Assembly: GCA_012965445.1 (NCBI GenBank)
Contig: DTSJ01000233.1
Span: 1 to 7,816 of the forward strand
DNA: 7,816 nt
Reading direction: 5' to 3'
From: Candidatus Hydrogenedentota bacterium
Lineage (GTDB): Bacteria > Hydrogenedentota > Hydrogenedentia > Hydrogenedentiales > GCA-2746185
Part shown: in pieces, positions 2,518 to 7,746 of the stretch
Layout of the letters: each line of letters begins with the position of its first letter
Position numbering within the stretch: position 1 is the stretch's first letter
Translations under genes and position numbers: made by a program
The notes under the pieces: generated by a model
The model's database searches: none
The model's input: only the letters and a program-made list of their open reading frames with translations
What the model was told of the DNA's origin: nothing

Positions 2518-3057
2518 ATGGCCGATTTTTACGAATCACTGACCGACGACCAGATTGCTTTCATCGAACGACAGTACATGTTTTTCGTATCTACTGCATA
2601 CTCCACCGGACGCATCAACCTGTCTCCGAAAGGCATGGACACTTTTCGCGTTCTCGATTCCAGCAGAGTCGCCTATCTCGACATGATGGGCTCCGGTAAC
2701 GAAACCTGCGCACACATCCAGAATGACGGTCGGGTCACGCTGATGTTGTGTTCCTTCGACCAGAAACCGAACATCCTGCGCATCTACGGTCAGGGAAAAG
2801 TGGTCGGCGCGAGTGACGACGAATGGGACGAGCTTATCGCGAGCTTCGATGAAATTCATGGGCAGCGCCAAATCATTGTAATACAGGTCGAGTCCACTCA
2901 GGACTCGTGCGGATATGCCGTTCCCCACTACGAATACAAAGAAGAACGCGATACACTCAGAAAGTACGGGGCAAGATATTCGCCGGAAGAACTGGCCAAG
3001 GGTCGCGAGATGCAGACGAAATCGATCGACGGACTCCCCATCCAGCCTTCGGTCTAG
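2518..3057 (+). CDS. Pyridoxamine 5'-phosphate oxidase-family flavoprotein
   Basis: The protein is 179 residues, a single split-barrel domain. Characteristic segments are the opening helix SLTDDQIAFIERQYMFFVSTA (7-27), INLSPKGMDTFRVLDSSRVAYLDMMGSGNETCAHIQNDGRVTLMLCSF (33-80) and LRIYGQGKVV (87-96), all usual in the FMN-binding PNPOx-like group. These proteins bind FMN or F420 or related cofactors and reduce or oxidise small molecules; the group is broad and this one is unlikely to be the vitamin B6 enzyme PdxH itself. AGGAG lies ten bases before the ATG at 2518, and an out-of-frame ATG at 2511 is ignored. The gene begins 19 bases after the broken regulator frame and appears intact. It may have been co-transcribed with that locus. 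Cofactor and substrate cannot be told from sequence. Confidence 0.88.
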   Translation: MADFYESLTDDQIAFIERQYMFFVSTAYSTGRINLSPKGMDTFRVLDSSRVAYLDMMGSGNETCAHIQNDGRVTLMLCSFDQKPNILRIYGQGKVVGASDDEWDELIASFDEIHGQRQIIVIQVESTQDSCGYAVPHYEYKEERDTLRKYGARYSPEELAKGREMQTKSIDGLPIQPSV

Positions 3058-3261: not shown

Positions 3262-4479
3262 ATGGATTTTCAGTTCAGTGATCAGGTCCGCGATTATCAG
3301 GAGCGGATCGCCGCCTTTATGGACAAGCATATTTATCCGCTTGAGCCGGATTACGCCGACCACGTTGCGGAAGCTGGCGGCTGGACTACCCCGCCCATCA
3401 TGGACGAGCTGAAAGTCAAGGCACGTGAAGAGGGGCTGTGGAATTTATTCATGTCCGGCGATGAACACGGCGCAGGACTCAGTGTCCTCGACTATGCCCC
3501 GCTCGCCGAACTCATGGGACGCGTGTCCTTCTCGTCGGAAGCCTTCAACTGCAGCGCACCCGACACCGGCAACATGGAAGTCCTGGCTCGTTACGGAACA
3601 AAAGAACAGCAGGACGAGTGGCTGACTCCCCTGCTGAACGGCGAAATACGCTCCTGCTTCTCAATGACCGAACCCGCCGTGGCTTCGAGCGATGCGACAA
3701 ACATCGAATGTCGCATCGAGCGAGACGGTGACGAATATGTCATCAACGGGCGCAAGTGGTTCTCCTCCGGATTCTCCAATGAACGGTGCAAGGTCGCAAT
3801 CGTCATGGGCAAAAGCGATCCCCACAACGAGAACCGCTACGTGCAGCAGTCCATGATCCTCGTTCCCAAGGTCACACACGGTCTCACCAAAGTCCGTGAT
3901 CTCCAGACTTTCGGCTACAAAGGAATGCCCTACGGACACCCGGAAATCCTTTTCGACAATGTTCGTGTTCCCGTGACAAATATGCTGCTCGGCGAAGGCC
4001 GTGGCTTCGAGATCGCCCAGGGACGTCTCGGTCCGGGTCGAATTCATCACTGCATGAGGTTCATAGGTTCCGCGCAGCGCGCTCTGGAACTGATGTGTCA
4101 ACGCGCCGAAAGCCGAAGCGCTTTTGGCAAGAAGTTGTCGGAACACGGATCGCTTCGGGAGGACATCGCCAAGTCTTTCTGCGAAATCGAGCAGGCCCGT
4201 CTGCTCACCCTGAGGGCGGCCGATCAAATGGACCGCTTCGGCAACCGGGAAGCGCGCGACCTGATCGCCGCCGCCAAAATCGTCGTGCCTAAAATGGCAG
4301 CAACAGTGATTGATCGTGCGATACAGGTTCATGGCGCTATGGGATTCACGAATGACACTTTCCTGCCCGCAGCCTATGCCAGTGCCCGGTATATTCAGGT
4401 CGGCGACGGCCCGGATCAAGTCCATATGTCATCCCTCGCCCGACAACTGCTTCGCCGATATGCTGCTGATGAGTCGTAA
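3262..4479 (+). CDS. Acyl-CoA dehydrogenase, LvaC/ACAD11-like
   Basis: At 405 residues this is a full-length FAD-dependent acyl-CoA dehydrogenase. The N-terminal helical domain covers 1-130. The FAD/substrate signature is CFSMTEPAVASSDATNI (132-148), followed by INGRKWFSSG (161-170) in the beta domain. The C-terminal helical domain includes GPGRIHHCMR (257-266), RSAFGKKL (285-292) and QVHGAMGFTND (355-365). The segment that carries the catalytic Glu in medium-chain enzymes (YEGT) reads VGDGPDQVH here, placing Asp382 at the base position, as in the ACAD10/11-like branch. With the kinase and DUF6285 genes immediately downstream it matches LvaC, which converts 4-phosphoacyl-CoA to enoyl-CoA in Pseudomonas levulinate breakdown. 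That role is inferred from context; an ordinary acyl-CoA oxidation role is the alternative. GGAG stands seven to eight bases before the ATG. The 204 bp upstream (3058-3261) hold no gene and no convincing promoter that I could place. Confidence 0.94.
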   Translation: MDFQFSDQVRDYQERIAAFMDKHIYPLEPDYADHVAEAGGWTTPPIMDELKVKAREEGLWNLFMSGDEHGAGLSVLDYAPLAELMGRVSFSSEAFNCSAPDTGNMEVLARYGTKEQQDEWLTPLLNGEIRSCFSMTEPAVASSDATNIECRIERDGDEYVINGRKWFSSGFSNERCKVAIVMGKSDPHNENRYVQQSMILVPKVTHGLTKVRDLQTFGYKGMPYGHPEILFDNVRVPVTNMLLGEGRGFEIAQGRLGPGRIHHCMRFIGSAQRALELMCQRAESRSAFGKKLSEHGSLREDIAKSFCEIEQARLLTLRAADQMDRFGNREARDLIAAAKIVVPKMAATVIDRAIQVHGAMGFTNDTFLPAAYASARYIQVGDGPDQVHMSSLARQLLRRYAADES

Positions 4480-4508
4480 GCACTCCAAACATACACATCG
4501 ACCCGTCC

Positions 4509-4513
4509 GGGAG
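4509..4513 (+). promoter_or_regulatory. Ribosome binding site deciding a GTG start for the kinase gene
   Basis: GGGAG lies five bases before the GTG at 4519, but eleven bases before the in-frame ATG at 4525. The spacing favours the GTG, which adds two residues. The difference does not affect the domain. Confidence 0.45.
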
Positions 4514-4518
4514 CTCGT

Positions 4519-5562
4519 GTGGCCATGACAGAAATAGTTACCAAAGGCCGTGCTGGAGAGCAGCTCTATGCTGTCCTGCAGGAGAAAGCATCAGAAGTCT
4601 ACGGCTCCGGTTCGACCGTGCAAAATCTCACCAAGATGTCCGCCGGTGCTAGCCGCGAAACATGGTCCTTTGATGTCATAGACGGTGACGGTACTACGGT
4701 TCCCCTCATCCTGAAACGCGATCCGGTCGTCTACGATTCGGACGGCTCAATCGTAAGAGAGAAAAAAGGTACCGGCGTATCGCGAACTACTGAAGGCCAA
4801 CTCGTCGAGCTTGGCGGCAAGGCCGGAGTCCCGGTTCCAGACGTACCGTTCTATCTCGAAGAAAATGACCATACCACGGAAGGCTTCATCATGCTCCGCC
4901 TCGAAGGTGAAACTCTCGGTCGCCGTATCCTCAGGGAAGACATCTACGCGGATGCGCGAACGAAACTCGCGTATCAATGCGGTCACGCCGCCGCCTGCGT
5001 TCACGGCATTCCGATTGAAGATGTCCCCGAACTCAGCTCGATGAACGTCAGCGAGTTGTTGAACAATCTTGGAGACCAGCTGTCCTCCGTCGATCATCCC
5101 TATCCCGGATTCGAATACGGCCTGCGCTGGCTTGGAGAACGGCACGATCTCGCGGGCAATCGCCACACACTGGTTCACGGCGATTTTCGAAATGGAAACA
5201 TTATCGTTGGGCCGGACGGGTTGCGCGCCTTGCTCGACTGGGAGATCGCCTATTTCGGTAATCCCATGAGCGATCTCGGCTGGATCTGCGTACCATCCTG
5301 GCGATATGGACACATGAACAAACCCGTCGGCGGCTTTGGCGAGATCGAAGACCTCCTCGCAGGCTACGAAGCAGGCGGCGGGGAAGATGCCAGTGCCGAA
5401 GCAGTTCACTACTGGTCCGTCTTCGGCGCGCTGCGATGGGGAGTCATGTGTGTCGGCATGGCGTTTACCCATATCAACGGCCCGCACCCATCTTTTGAGA
5501 AAGCCGCAATCGGACGCCGCACCGCCGAAACCGAATATGACCTGTTGAGACTTGTCGACTAA
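4519..5562 (+). CDS. APH-family phosphotransferase, LvaA-like hydroxyacyl-CoA kinase (putative)
   Basis: A 347-residue aminoglycoside-phosphotransferase-fold kinase. The N-lobe has a glycine-containing loop near MSAGASRETW (40-49), the likely ATP-anchoring Lys66 in LILKRDP and a candidate helix-C Glu93 in TTEGQLV. The catalytic loop LVHGDFRNGNII (218-229) contributes Asp222 and Asn227. LLDWEIAYFGNPMSDLGWI (238-256) holds the metal-binding Asp240, the counterpart of DFG. The DWE form and the following GNPMSDLG are typical of the subgroup related to the kinase half of animal ACAD10/ACAD11 and to bacterial LvaA, rather than of antibiotic-resistance kinases. It lies 39 bases after the acyl-CoA dehydrogenase and 15 before the DUF6285 gene, almost certainly in one transcript. 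The inferred reaction is ATP-dependent phosphorylation of the 4-hydroxyl of a hydroxyacyl-CoA. Fold is certain; substrate is inferred from context. Confidence 0.92.
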   Translation: MAMTEIVTKGRAGEQLYAVLQEKASEVYGSGSTVQNLTKMSAGASRETWSFDVIDGDGTTVPLILKRDPVVYDSDGSIVREKKGTGVSRTTEGQLVELGGKAGVPVPDVPFYLEENDHTTEGFIMLRLEGETLGRRILREDIYADARTKLAYQCGHAAACVHGIPIEDVPELSSMNVSELLNNLGDQLSSVDHPYPGFEYGLRWLGERHDLAGNRHTLVHGDFRNGNIIVGPDGLRALLDWEIAYFGNPMSDLGWICVPSWRYGHMNKPVGGFGEIEDLLAGYEAGGGEDASAEAVHYWSVFGALRWGVMCVGMAFTHINGPHPSFEKAAIGRRTAETEYDLLRLVD

Positions 5563-5577
5563 AAACGGAGTGACCCG

Positions 5578-5940
5578 ATGCCAATAGACCGACCCACCGC
5601 CGCCGAGCTTCTCCAAGCCGTACGCCAGCATTTGATAGACAATCTCGCTCCCACGCTGGATGGACAGCCCGCATTTCATCTTCGCGTCGCCACAAACGCC
5701 CTGGCAATCGTCGAGCGAACCATTGCGGACGGCGAAGCGATGGACCAGGAGGAACTTACCCGATTGCAGGGGCTTCTTGAAAACGACGGAGGTCTACTCG
5801 ATCTAAACACGCAGCTTGTGAACCAAATCAGAGCCGGGGAGCTGGACGAAAAGCGCGACGCGGTACTGGACCATCTCCGAAAGACATCCGTCGACAAACT
5901 GCGCCTCTCGAATCCCCGGTACATGGTCCCACGTGACTGA
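5578..5940 (+). CDS. DUF6285-family small protein, LvaB-like kinase partner (putative)
   Basis: This is a 120-residue, probably all-helical soluble protein with no signal peptide or membrane segment. RPTAAELLQAVRQHLIDNLAPTLDG (5-29) followed by AFHLRVATNALAIVERTI (32-49) is the recognisable N-terminal pattern of the DUF6285 family, which occurs next to phosphotransferase and acyl-CoA dehydrogenase genes. The C-terminus, LRLSNPRYMVPRD, also fits. In Pseudomonas putida the small protein LvaB is needed together with the kinase LvaA to phosphorylate 4-hydroxyvaleryl-CoA; this gene's size and position suggest the same partner role. That equivalence is my inference and was not checked by alignment. 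GGAG lies about eight bases before the ATG. The stop at 5940 is only two bases from the end of the converging gene. Confidence 0.82.
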   Translation: MPIDRPTAAELLQAVRQHLIDNLAPTLDGQPAFHLRVATNALAIVERTIADGEAMDQEELTRLQGLLENDGGLLDLNTQLVNQIRAGELDEKRDAVLDHLRKTSVDKLRLSNPRYMVPRD

Positions 5941-5942
5941 GA

Positions 5943-6434
5943 TCAACCGCCCCGTCTCCAGCCAAAGATCGACATCGTAACGGCACCCAGACCGCGAACG
6001 AACAACACCAGCGAACATACCTGACCCAACACAGGCGTAAAAAATGCCGCCTCAGCGATCATCCCGCCGTACAGCGTCATCTTGACTTCACGGTTCGGGC
6101 CGAAGTCGTCAAACAGATTCGATCCAATCGCGCGATACATCACGGTGTAACTCAGCAGTGCCAGCCACAGATAAAAAACGAGCAGCAACAGGCCCGGCAA
6201 CGCGAGTACTTCAGTACTGATTAACAAAATCGCGATGAACGGAATCGCCACTCCATTGATGAATCCCAACAGCGGCACCAATCGGCGCGGCTTCTTCTGA
6301 TAATGCTCGCCCGCCCGCTCGATAAATTCAGGCATCGCATGTTGAATCAAAACTGCCATGCCAATAAATCCAGTCTTGAACACAAAAAAAAGGCACAACC
6401 AAAGTATAACGGTCAATATTCCAGTCGGTTCCAT
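5943..6434 (-). CDS. Unrecognised integral membrane protein in sigma/anti-sigma operon
   Basis: I do not recognise a named family. The 163 residues show about four hydrophobic helices: roughly 5-30, 53-73, 78-100 and 122-147. Between the first two is a charged loop (PEFIERAGEHYQKKPRR, 35-51), and between the last two a charged segment with SNLFDDFGPNREVK (105-118). It ends in RGLGAVTMSIFGWRRGG, a Gly/Arg-rich tail. A weak GAGG site lies about eleven bases before the ATG at 6434. It starts 36 bases after the anti-sigma stop and reads in the same direction, so it is probably the third gene of that unit. Guilt by association suggests a role in sensing an envelope signal or as an effector of the sigma regulon; nothing in the sequence proves this. 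Confidence 0.75.
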   Translation of the reverse strand: MEPTGILTVILWLCLFFVFKTGFIGMAVLIQHAMPEFIERAGEHYQKKPRRLVPLLGFINGVAIPFIAILLISTEVLALPGLLLLVFYLWLALLSYTVMYRAIGSNLFDDFGPNREVKMTLYGGMIAEAAFFTPVLGQVCSLVLFVRGLGAVTMSIFGWRRGG

Positions 6435-6470: not shown

Positions 6471-7013
6471 CTATCGACCCGCATGTCGAAGCTGCGTCGC
6501 ACACAGTCCGTTCAACACCACCAGCAACACGACCATCGCTGCAAGCGCACTCCATACAATCGATGTCGAAAACCATTCCACTCCCTCAAACATACCTCTT
6601 CCATTCGACCATGCCGTCTCGAACTGATTGCGATACGATCGGCCCGTCCCCAGCCACTCCGTATCCGGAATCCACGCCCGTACAAATTTCCAAACACTTT
6701 CCTCGATTTCCTGCACAGGCAGCAGCTGATTCAACGCACCCGCGCTGATCAACGCACAAGCAACCATCGCTCCGATCACCGTAGGCCTGTTCCGTCGCGA
6801 ACGCTCCTGATCAATTGCCGTCATGACGCGTTCCTCGATTCCCGCAGGCGCCTCGAACGGAAGGTCGTACAGCATACCCTCCATCGATTCAAGCTCGGCA
6901 GCCTCCGCACGACATGTCGAACATCCCGAAAGATGCGAATCCAACTCCGGTGTACGTTCAACACCATCGTCAAAAAATTCTTCCAGCATCGCTATCGCGT
7001 TTTTACAATCCAT
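6471..7013 (-). CDS. Zinc-finger (ZAS/zf-HC2-type) anti-sigma factor
   Basis: Predicted to hold the adjacent ECF sigma factor inactive at the membrane. The 180-residue protein opens with MDCKNAIAMLEEFFDDG and has Cys3 plus HLSGCSTC (His27, Cys31, Cys34), the H-x3-C-x2-C signature of zinc-binding anti-sigma domains. Hydrophobic segments follow at about 78-97 (PTVIGAMVACALISAGAL) and 151-170 (IVWSALAAMVVLLVVLNGL). They enclose a Trp-rich region (108-148) that would face the periplasm if both span the membrane. The ATG at 7013 shares one base with the sigma stop (TGATG), indicating translational coupling; an in-frame GTG at 7016 is the alternative start. The Cys/His cluster would allow redox control, as in related systems, but a protease-controlled release is equally possible. 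Confidence 0.92.
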   Translation of the reverse strand: MDCKNAIAMLEEFFDDGVERTPELDSHLSGCSTCRAEAAELESMEGMLYDLPFEAPAGIEERVMTAIDQERSRRNRPTVIGAMVACALISAGALNQLLPVQEIEESVWKFVRAWIPDTEWLGTGRSYRNQFETAWSNGRGMFEGVEWFSTSIVWSALAAMVVLLVVLNGLCATQLRHAGR

Positions 7014-7612
7014 CACGGTTTGTCCTTTTCCAACAGCGTCCGCAGCGTCTTCCGGGCGCGATGCAGCGCTACCTTAGCCGCGCCCTCACTCATCTCCAAA
7101 ACCTTCGCCGCCTCCACAATCGTGAGTCCTTCCTGATAATAAAGTTGAATCAGCATTGGCAGCGGAGCAGGTAATCGATCAACCGCCTTCGCAAGTCTGT
7201 CTTTCAACTCATGGCTCTCGACCAACTCCGCACTGCCGTCATCCACAACCGAGACTTCCGTCCCCGGGTCTTCCCGAGCAGAAGGAATACGCCGCCCTCG
7301 CGATCGCGCAGCATTTTTCCCCACGTTTGTGGCAATCGCGTACAACCAATTCCGAAACGGACGCGTACGATCGTAGCTTCTGACCTTTCGATAGGCCAGC
7401 ACGAAGGTTTCCTGCGTCAAGTCCTCCGCTTCCTCCCGATTGCGCACCATCCGATACAAGTGCGCGTATATGCGAGCCGAGTAATACTCGACCAGCGGAC
7501 TAAATGCATCGGGCTTCCCCTGCTCCATCTTGGTTATGCATGCTCGCTCCCAAAAGGGGACACCGGTGTCAATTTCCTTGGGGTCACGCGCATCAGATCC
7601 ATCGGGATTCAT
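7013..7612 (-). CDS. ECF-type RNA polymerase sigma factor (sigma-70 family)
   Basis: From the ATG at 7612 the product is 199 residues, typical of ECF sigma factors. Region 2 spans about 33-103: DAFSPLVEYYSARIYAHLYRMV, then the conserved EEAEDLTQETFVLAYRKVRSYD (60-81) and RPFRNWLYAIATNVGKNAARSRGRR (84-108). Region 4 spans about 136-193 with LPAPLPMLIQLYYQEGLTIVEAAKVLEMSEGAAKVALHRARKTL, including the helix-turn-helix for -35 recognition. There is no region 3. The start is uncertain: the frame is open further upstream to an ATG at 7711 (preceded by AAGGG) and a TTG at 7732, while an internal ATG at 7528 would shorten it by 28 residues. The 7612 start gives a normal leader but lacks a ribosome site; TATAAC seven bases upstream might allow a leaderless message. 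The next gene is its anti-sigma factor. Confidence 0.93.
   Translation of the reverse strand: MNPDGSDARDPKEIDTGVPFWERACITKMEQGKPDAFSPLVEYYSARIYAHLYRMVRNREEAEDLTQETFVLAYRKVRSYDRTRPFRNWLYAIATNVGKNAARSRGRRIPSAREDPGTEVSVVDDGSAELVESHELKDRLAKAVDRLPAPLPMLIQLYYQEGLTIVEAAKVLEMSEGAAKVALHRARKTLRTLLEKDKP
7559..7570. repeat. Perfect 12-bp palindrome near the 5' end of the sigma gene
   Basis: GACACCGGTGTC is perfectly symmetrical. It lies 42 bases inside the sigma gene if translation starts at 7612, but 31 bases upstream of the internal ATG at 7528. Its half-sites match those of the inverted repeat at 1572-1595 (GACACC and GGTGTC, there separated by AC). It could be an operator, part of a small dispersed repeat or coincidence. 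Confidence 0.4.
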
Positions 7613-7718
7613 GAATCCAGTTATACACCAGTCCAAGGCATGGACACTACTCGATTGAGCAAAGAGATATCCGGGTCCAGTCCACTCCGCTATGCGTGCA
7701 TGCAATTCCATTTCAACC

Positions 7719-7746
7719 CTTATACCTTCCAATCCTAACCGTACAA
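7719..7746 (-). promoter_or_regulatory. Possible sigma-70-like promoter upstream of the sigma/anti-sigma operon
   Basis: Reading the minus strand, TTGTAC (7746-7741) and TATAAG (7724-7719) are separated by 16 bases. The -10 matches the consensus at five of six positions, the -35 at three. Transcription would begin near 7712, about 100 bases before the preferred sigma start. No independent support is available. Confidence 0.28.

Follow-up and report, generated by a model that had tools for sequence, protein, structure and literature searches.

What does a bacterium do with an acyl-CoA dehydrogenase-fold flavoenzyme, an APH-fold kinase and a small protein of family DUF6285 encoded one after another on the same strand? 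The question is raised by a trio of genes on a contig of 7,816 nucleotides (DTSJ01000233.1, assembly GCA_012965445.1) from a Candidatus Hydrogenedentota bacterium; the whole of this stretch was analysed and is called the window here. The initial annotation saw in the trio an LvaC-LvaA-LvaB-like operon and a probable phosphorylation route for 4-hydroxyacyl-coenzyme A (CoA). The route remains the best reading, with the lyase residues kept, the kinase on the LvaA side of its tree and the small protein a member of the LvaB family. The likeness to the lva operon stands for the kinase and the small protein, but not for the flavoenzyme, which belongs to the branch of the acyl-CoA dehydrogenases ACAD10 and ACAD11. 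The trio is a real, conserved module and probably a metabolic one. We consider it likely that it constitutes a two-step 4-hydroxyacyl-CoA module, a hybrid that joins an ACAD10/11-branch lyase to a two-protein kinase of the LvaA/LvaB branch.

In the proposed route, the kinase, in complex with the DUF6285/LvaB-family protein, would transfer a phosphate from ATP to the 4-hydroxyl of 4-hydroxyacyl-CoA, giving 4-phosphoacyl-CoA. Asp382 of the flavoenzyme would then remove a proton from the acyl chain, and the phosphate, held by Arg255, His263 and Arg266, would be expelled to yield 2-enoyl-CoA with no net oxidation. The module would in this way feed 4-hydroxyacyl-CoA into beta-oxidation. Such chemistry is described as established for LvaA/LvaC and for ACAD10/11 (PMC11342911, PMC12440821). 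From the family memberships, intact residues, linkage, natural fusions and co-occurrence computed here, we infer the enzyme activities, the complex formation of these proteins and the substrate.

The flavoenzyme matches Pfam Acyl-CoA_dh_1 above its curated cut-off (E 1.7e-36), and its closest sequence match in the PDB is mouse ACAD11 (8v3u, E 2.5e-125). Ranked highest, with E values of 1.8e-118 or below, are ACAD11 (8v3u, 8v3v, 2wbi) and a putative acyl-CoA dehydrogenase (4hr3); a short-chain acyl-CoA dehydrogenase follows at E 4e-39. The flavoenzyme shares 51% identity with the mouse ACAD11 domain, 56–62% with seven ACAD11-type proteins of bacteria and 33% with LvaC. The corresponding scores are 406 bits for the mouse domain, 209 bits for LvaC and 41–116 bits for seven conventional neighbour dehydrogenases, an eighth giving no match at E 1e-3. 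Residues R255, R260, H263, R266 and D382 align with R626, R631, H634, R637 and D753 of mouse ACAD11 (the PDB chain numbering of which is the residue numbering minus one). As described in PMC12440821, R626, H634 and R637 of ACAD11 hold the 4-phosphate in a modelled complex backed by mutants, D753 is the base, and non-conservative replacement of R626, H634 or R637 in ACAD10/11 is the change most disruptive to the second step. LvaC has the same phosphate-handling residue set; in the same alignment, the conventional neighbours from loci L005 and L007 are without it and carry Glu in place of the Asp. A tree of 71 rows, built by a quick method with a midpoint root and with 30 short loci (L096–L125) left out, places the flavoenzyme on the ACAD10/11 branch. 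Its identification as LvaC was rejected: a starred side of this tree is made up of the six LvaC-type rows by themselves, and identity to LvaC is low. Mouse ACAD11 and the L001 copy of LvaC are 34% identical in our comparison. The protein is thus best explained as an ACAD10/11-branch enzyme and a predicted phosphate-eliminating lyase. The annotated ACAD10/11-like character of the dehydrogenase is accordingly confirmed by its identity to mouse ACAD11, its diagnostic residues and its place in the tree.

The kinase, by comparison, sides with the lva system. It matches Pfam APH (PF01636) above the curated cut-off (E 1.6e-16) and carries the motifs HGDFRNGN (H220, D222, N227) and DWE (D240–E242), the latter as first annotated. 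An alignment of 31 sequences, the window's among them, shows no variation at H220, D222, N227, D240 or E242, and the catalytic D222, N227 and D240 are intact. Identity to LvaA is 30% over 341 residues, and the alignments to the ACAD11-adjacent kinases of Sphingobium, Sphingopyxis, Haematobacter and Deinococcus are weaker or shorter. A kinase tree (75 of 117 rows, thinned by hand; quick method, midpoint root) splits in two with a support of 99 in the Shimodaira–Hasegawa-like approximate likelihood ratio test. LvaA-type (5) and window-type (56) rows stand on one side, ACAD10/11-type rows (13) and the long-branched L093 on the other. Within its side the window kinase groups with the window-type rows and apart from the LvaA rows, in a clade of five (97) with L009, L010, L011 and L013, which L016 joins at 89. 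The upstream neighbour in L011 is not visible because that locus starts at a contig end just before the kinase. Profile scores follow the same division: the window kinase scores 594 bits against the window-type profile (of which it is itself a seed), 223 against the LvaA-type and 54 against the ACAD10/11-type, while the kinase piece of mouse ACAD11 scores 39, 96 and 307 bits, respectively. An ACAD10/11-type identity was rejected on these scores and for want of an Arg at the position of ACAD11 R176, a modelled CoA contact. The window kinase has a gap there, in a gap-prone stretch; the Arg is present in four of four bacterial ACAD11-type kinases aligned and in none of six DUF6285-type kinases. 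ACAD11 R86 was left out of the comparison, its numbering being at odds with the alignment there. Judged by sequence, then, the window kinase is of the LvaA, DUF6285-partnered side and outside the ACAD10/11 kinase side.

The small protein was annotated as DUF6285-like, and it indeed matches PF19802 at E 1.8e-28 (99.4 bits against a cut-off of 28.1). Its identity follows from an lva-type operon on the Pseudomonas aeruginosa plasmid p12939-PER (L001), the second gene of which is annotated as LvaB, a subunit of 4-hydroxypentanoyl-CoA kinase. This named LvaB matches PF19802 (E 4.8e-24, 85.3 bits) and aligns with the window DUF6285 family in hhalign (probability 98.4, E 4.6e-15); DUF6285 is therefore the LvaB family. 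In P. putida, LvaB is reported to interact with LvaA in a pull-down and to be required for growth on levulinate (PMC6692424).

Genomic linkage tells the same story. Among 80 kinase loci, the best 80 of 533 confirmed stretches from a kinase profile search, DUF6285 lies directly downstream of the kinase in 66 and is fused to it in one frame in seven. It sits on the other strand within 2.2 kb of the kinase in four (L039, L073, L081, L088), in the last three of which it is 2.1–2.2 kb off, beyond an ACAD11-type gene; in one (L070) it is cut by the contig end. None of the 27 ACAD10/11-type kinases in the loci fetched has DUF6285 within 600 bases, and the five that lie within ~2.6 kb of one are near a DUF6285 that directly follows a window-type kinase. 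One kinase–DUF6285 fusion drew 7911 matches, and both Pfam domains are present in all 120 matches listed, the first being the query. Its predicted structure (predicted local distance difference test, pLDDT, 89.9; predicted template modelling score, pTM, 0.89) has both domains confident and a disordered linker. Only the pTM hints that the domains are held in a fixed arrangement, and confidence is markedly lower in two of the five models (mean pLDDT 79.4 and 77.4). The DUF6285 protein is predicted to be an accessory subunit that the kinase would bind and need, for which its linkage to the kinase, the fusions and the modelled homologous fusion speak indirectly. In public data the window kinase has a relative at 85% identity and the DUF6285 protein one at 90%, so these are conserved genes.

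Does the kinase pair keep company with a lyase? Co-occurrence was scored in 59 genomes, G003 at the centre and 58 relatives, where lyase matches of both types were set by E 1e-80 alone and, in the larger genomes, the best 31–32 candidates were scored. DUF6285 is found in 19 of these genomes, an ACAD11-type enzyme in 23 and an LvaC-type enzyme in nine. One or both lyase types occur in 17 of the 19 DUF6285 genomes versus 11 of the 40 genomes without DUF6285 (Fisher p 1.2e-5), and leaving out G003 changes this little (16/18 versus 11/40, p 1.5e-5). The R-R-H-R motif is present in all 31 ACAD11-type places opened (27 of the 42 in the set and four more) and in all nine LvaC-type places opened, of 10. 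In addition, 27 of 28 genomes reached via kinase loci also have an ACAD11-type match, a count that is not main evidence because it has no control set.

Direct pairing is seen in eight of the 80 kinase loci, in which a gene of ACAD11 type with the full residue set adjoins the kinase (L009, L010, L013, L016, L069, L073, L081, L088); in L081 and L088 it directly precedes the kinase. The window's closest relatives, L009, L010, L013 and L016, share the pairing and also have a gene for a short-chain dehydrogenase/reductase (SDR) beside the genes. In the tree of 71 rows, the 14 ACAD11-type rows with a DUF6285-type kinase fall in four places: the window clade (five rows, 99), a pair of such modules that adjoin each other in one genome (L127), a row beside mouse ACAD11 (L126, 90) and a deep clade that carries the variant IFHCMR. 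The starred branches of the tree force at least four changes. The pairing is nonetheless a minority arrangement: none of 40 further opened ACAD11-type loci shows it (the choice of these left out known trio loci and, for 20 of them, also places known near DUF6285), and four of the 42 ACAD11-type places in the 59 genomes have DUF6285 within 5 kb. One may tentatively go further and picture DUF6285/LvaB as the mark of a second lineage of hydroxyacyl-CoA kinases, this one with two subunits. The small helical subunit would take on some of the recognition of the CoA substrate that kinases of ACAD10/11 type accomplish in a single chain. Pairings of this lineage with ACAD10/11-type lyases would have arisen independently on several occasions, making the two halves of the pathway, kinase and lyase, interchangeable. 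This wider picture is, on balance, doubtful.

Several observations weigh against a 4-hydroxyacyl-CoA module. An ACAD11-type gene adjoins the kinase in just the eight loci named, and a few DUF6285-type kinases stand beside conventional dehydrogenases (L005, L007, L054, L128, L129). Taken alone, the ACAD11-type enzyme is more weakly associated with DUF6285 (13/19 versus 10/40, p 0.0035; p 0.0037 without G003). In the other six DUF6285 genomes an LvaC-type enzyme occurs in four, three of which have it beside the kinase–DUF6285 pair with an SDR adjoining. G045 and G061 have DUF6285 and LvaA-type kinases but neither lyase at E 1e-80, and genome size and completeness may inflate the co-occurrence as a whole. 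No DUF6285 lies beside the L010 kinase or in the L058 locus, two of the 80, and the L010 genome carries one at another locus, L012. Finally, the similarity of the window kinase to the kinase domain of ACAD11 is weak (E 4e-6), and it has no Arg at the R176 position.

In another explanation, the kinase–DUF6285 pair would prepare an elimination by phosphorylating some other hydroxylated compound (a hydroxyacyl-CoA at a different position, the side chain of a hydroxysteroid or terpenoid, or a tertiary alcohol). The neighbouring gene would then vary with the pathway, and the ACAD10/11-type enzyme would act on a phosphorylated intermediate other than simple 4-phosphoacyl-CoA. The conventional neighbours just mentioned fit this explanation, as do tandem DUF6285-type kinases that have no ACAD11-type neighbour in 12 of the 80 loci. 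A Foldseek search with the fusion model also ranked a 25-hydroxy steroid kinase (9fsg) third, and a P450 gene and a TonB receptor gene lie near L013. We regard it as unlikely all the same: the window lyase keeps the 4-phosphate-binding set of ACAD11, kinases of LvaA type, from the window kinase's side of the tree, are located in lva-type operons, and the 17 DUF6285 genomes counted above have one of the two known types of 4-phosphoacyl-CoA lyase.

A plain levulinate (4-oxopentanoate) pathway, its ligase and reductase being encoded at other sites of the genome, would use reactions identical to those of LvaA/B and LvaC, and the SDRs beside the genes of the four closest relatives could be taken for its reductase. 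The L010 and L013 SDRs share 67% identity, and each shares 36% with LvaD. This value is no mark of LvaD because SDRs of Thermus (40%) and Deinococcus (37%) come just as close; the SDRs of L009 and L016 are not close to the L010/L013 pair and stand at 29% and 31% to LvaD. The window itself yields no SDR (tblastn of 12 SDRs; best E 0.02, short scraps). It likewise yields nothing under E 0.1 for LvaD, LvaE, LvaG (cut at its end) or PrpR (LvaR) in tblastn, LvaF not being searched. With the lyase also placed apart from LvaC in the tree, a levulinate pathway seems quite improbable. The stand-alone character first proposed for the trio, with no LvaD or LvaE nearby, therefore holds for the window but does not extend to L009, L010, L013 and L016 with their adjoining SDRs. 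The departure from the order lvaA-lvaB-lvaC is likewise real in the window yet not distinctive, because the order dehydrogenase-kinase-DUF6285 occurs with LvaC in Thermus oshimai (L002).

That an ordinary acyl-CoA dehydrogenase, an aminoglycoside-type phosphotransferase and an unrelated small protein share no common pathway is suggested by the automatic names of relatives and by the breadth of Pfam APH, and is very hard to credit given the linkage and fusion of kinase and DUF6285, the retention of the trio in relatives and the non-conventional active site of the dehydrogenase. For the kinase, moreover, no NCBIfam resistance model was matched at E 0.001, the best of three weak matches being a thiamine kinase far under its cut-off. 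A two-step 4-hydroxyacyl-CoA module thus remains the preferred reading of the trio.

The open reading frames bear out three consecutive genes with short gaps between them, as first annotated (Table 1). The database copy of the kinase has 345 residues, which fits an ATG start at 4525 and would widen the first gap to 45 bases. No terminator-like site was found between positions 2900 and 6100. The surroundings, which encode a PPOX protein, an HTH_11 protein, an extracytoplasmic function (ECF) sigma factor, a PPIC-type isomerase and a HupE/UreJ-like protein, give no hint of the substrate. The PPOX-type flavoprotein was considered as a pathway partner and rejected, none being noticed beside the trio in four relatives (one gene list, two lists of open reading frames and Pfam scans of selected neighbours). 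The gene that overlaps the sigma factor gene by 4 bases has no Pfam match, and its start carries an HxxxCxxC stretch, which we take to be a mark of zinc-type anti-sigma factors.

Table 1. Positions in the window of the trio, its intergenic gaps and selected neighbours
Feature	Position	Strand	Remarks
PPOX-type flavoprotein gene (PF01243)	2518–3057	+	204 bases upstream of the trio
ACAD10/11-type acyl-CoA dehydrogenase-fold flavoenzyme, predicted 4-phosphoacyl-CoA lyase	3262–4479	+	405 residues, ATG start
Gap between flavoenzyme and kinase genes	4480–4518	+	39 bases
APH-fold kinase, predicted catalytic subunit of 4-hydroxyacyl-CoA kinase	4519–5562	+	347 residues, GTG start
Gap between kinase and DUF6285 genes	5563–5577	+	15 bases, GGAG upstream of DUF6285 start
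DUF6285 (LvaB-family) all-helical protein, predicted accessory kinase subunit	5578–5940	+	120 residues, ATG start
Gene overlapping the ECF sigma factor gene	6471–7016	−	4-base overlap
ECF sigma factor gene	7013–7732	−	

The loci opened along the way hold further variations. In the 12 tandem loci (L012, L014, L015, L017–L025), from metagenome genomes labelled Alphaproteobacteria, Rhodospirillaceae or Proteobacteria, two window-type kinase genes are followed by a single DUF6285, which may serve both. Eight loci, nearly all labelled Actinomycetota (L027, L032, L033, L035, L042, L045, L051, L055), have a DUF6285-type kinase or fusion and an ACAD10/11-type kinase ~1–3 kb apart on opposite strands, which puts the two kinase lineages in a common neighbourhood. 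In Cupriavidus pinatubonensis (L004:5890–7298), the kinase–DUF6285 pair is flanked by a dapA-annotated gene on one side and an indolepyruvate ferredoxin oxidoreductase gene on the other. The annotation of the 12.9 kb shown includes no acyl-CoA dehydrogenase, which suggests that the pair has been put to another use. A histidine phosphatase family gene directly follows the kinase or the kinase–DUF6285 pair in Thermus (L002:9312–9971), Azoarcus (L003:9346–10023) and Deinococcus (L089:8313–9026), and one is also described in the P. citronellolis lva cluster (PMC6692424). Proteins of DUF7064/DUF7065 are encoded beside a DUF6285-type kinase in one locus (L064:6919–7947) and beside an ACAD11-type lyase in another (L093:6224–7231), and are a possible further partner.

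On the lyase side, the ACAD11-type gene of L126 (genome G030; 5126–6355, minus strand) has HHSMR in place of HHCMR and stands in the order lyase-SDR-kinase-DUF6285. In Tistrella mobilis an ACAD11-type gene is followed by a gene for an HPr-kinase-like protein (L090:6314–7267; PF07475, just under the cut-off), and no APH-fold kinase was found in the 11 kb fetched; this protein is possibly an unrelated kinase in the same role. Some lyase relatives lie near P450s, ferredoxins, alpha/beta-hydrolases and SDRs, neighbours that would fit hydroxylated or lactone-derived acids.

How does the trio compare with the systems already known? The mammalian route for 4-hydroxy fatty acids was assigned in 2024 and 2025, and the bacterial side as presented in these papers consists of the lva operon and a Burkholderia pair (PMC11342911, PMC12440821). 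Among open-licence papers, neither the name DUF6285 nor a description of the hybrid lyase–kinase combination was found, and the literature retrieved there on bacterial 4-hydroxyacyl-CoA kinases and acyl-CoA dehydrogenases, all of it on ACAD10/11, does not mention LvaB. The parts are known; the combination and the assignment of DUF6285 are new, and the surprise is moderate. If the assignment is true, a family of unknown function becomes a kinase partner, and an APH-fold gene with DUF6285 next to it or fused to it would point annotators to a hydroxyacyl-CoA-type kinase, not a drug-resistance enzyme.

The 25-hydroxy steroid kinase (PDB 9fsg, 9ft5) is likewise an APH-fold kinase that phosphorylates an alcohol and a fold match of the homologous fusion. 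Its sequence match to the window kinase is weak (E 6e-4), and its PDB entry, by contrast, names a 25-hydroxysteroid as substrate. With the lva operon of P. putida, compared here through that of p12939-PER, the trio shares a kinase, a DUF6285/LvaB protein and an acyl-CoA dehydrogenase-fold lyase, together with the catalytic residues and the side of the kinase tree; it differs in the branch of its lyase, the modest identity of both enzymes to LvaA and LvaC, the gene order and the lack in the window of a detectable LvaD, E, G or R. With animal ACAD10/ACAD11 it shares the lyase domain, including the phosphate-handling residues and the catalytic Asp, whereas its kinase is a separate protein, falls on the other side of the kinase tree and is partnered by a DUF6285 protein. 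The bacterial ACAD10/11-type pairs of Sphingobium (L091), Sphingopyxis (L094), Haematobacter (L095) and Deinococcus (L089) have lyases 56–62% identical to that of the window, but their kinases are 34–43% identical to the mouse ACAD11 kinase domain and have no DUF6285 within 600 bases. Such pairs as such are already known, since a Burkholderia kinase and lyase, closer to ACAD10 than LvaA/LvaC are, are reported to have replaced the ACAD10 domains in vitro (PMC11342911). Beside the lva operon and the Burkholderia pair, the trio would thus represent a third arrangement of the same route.

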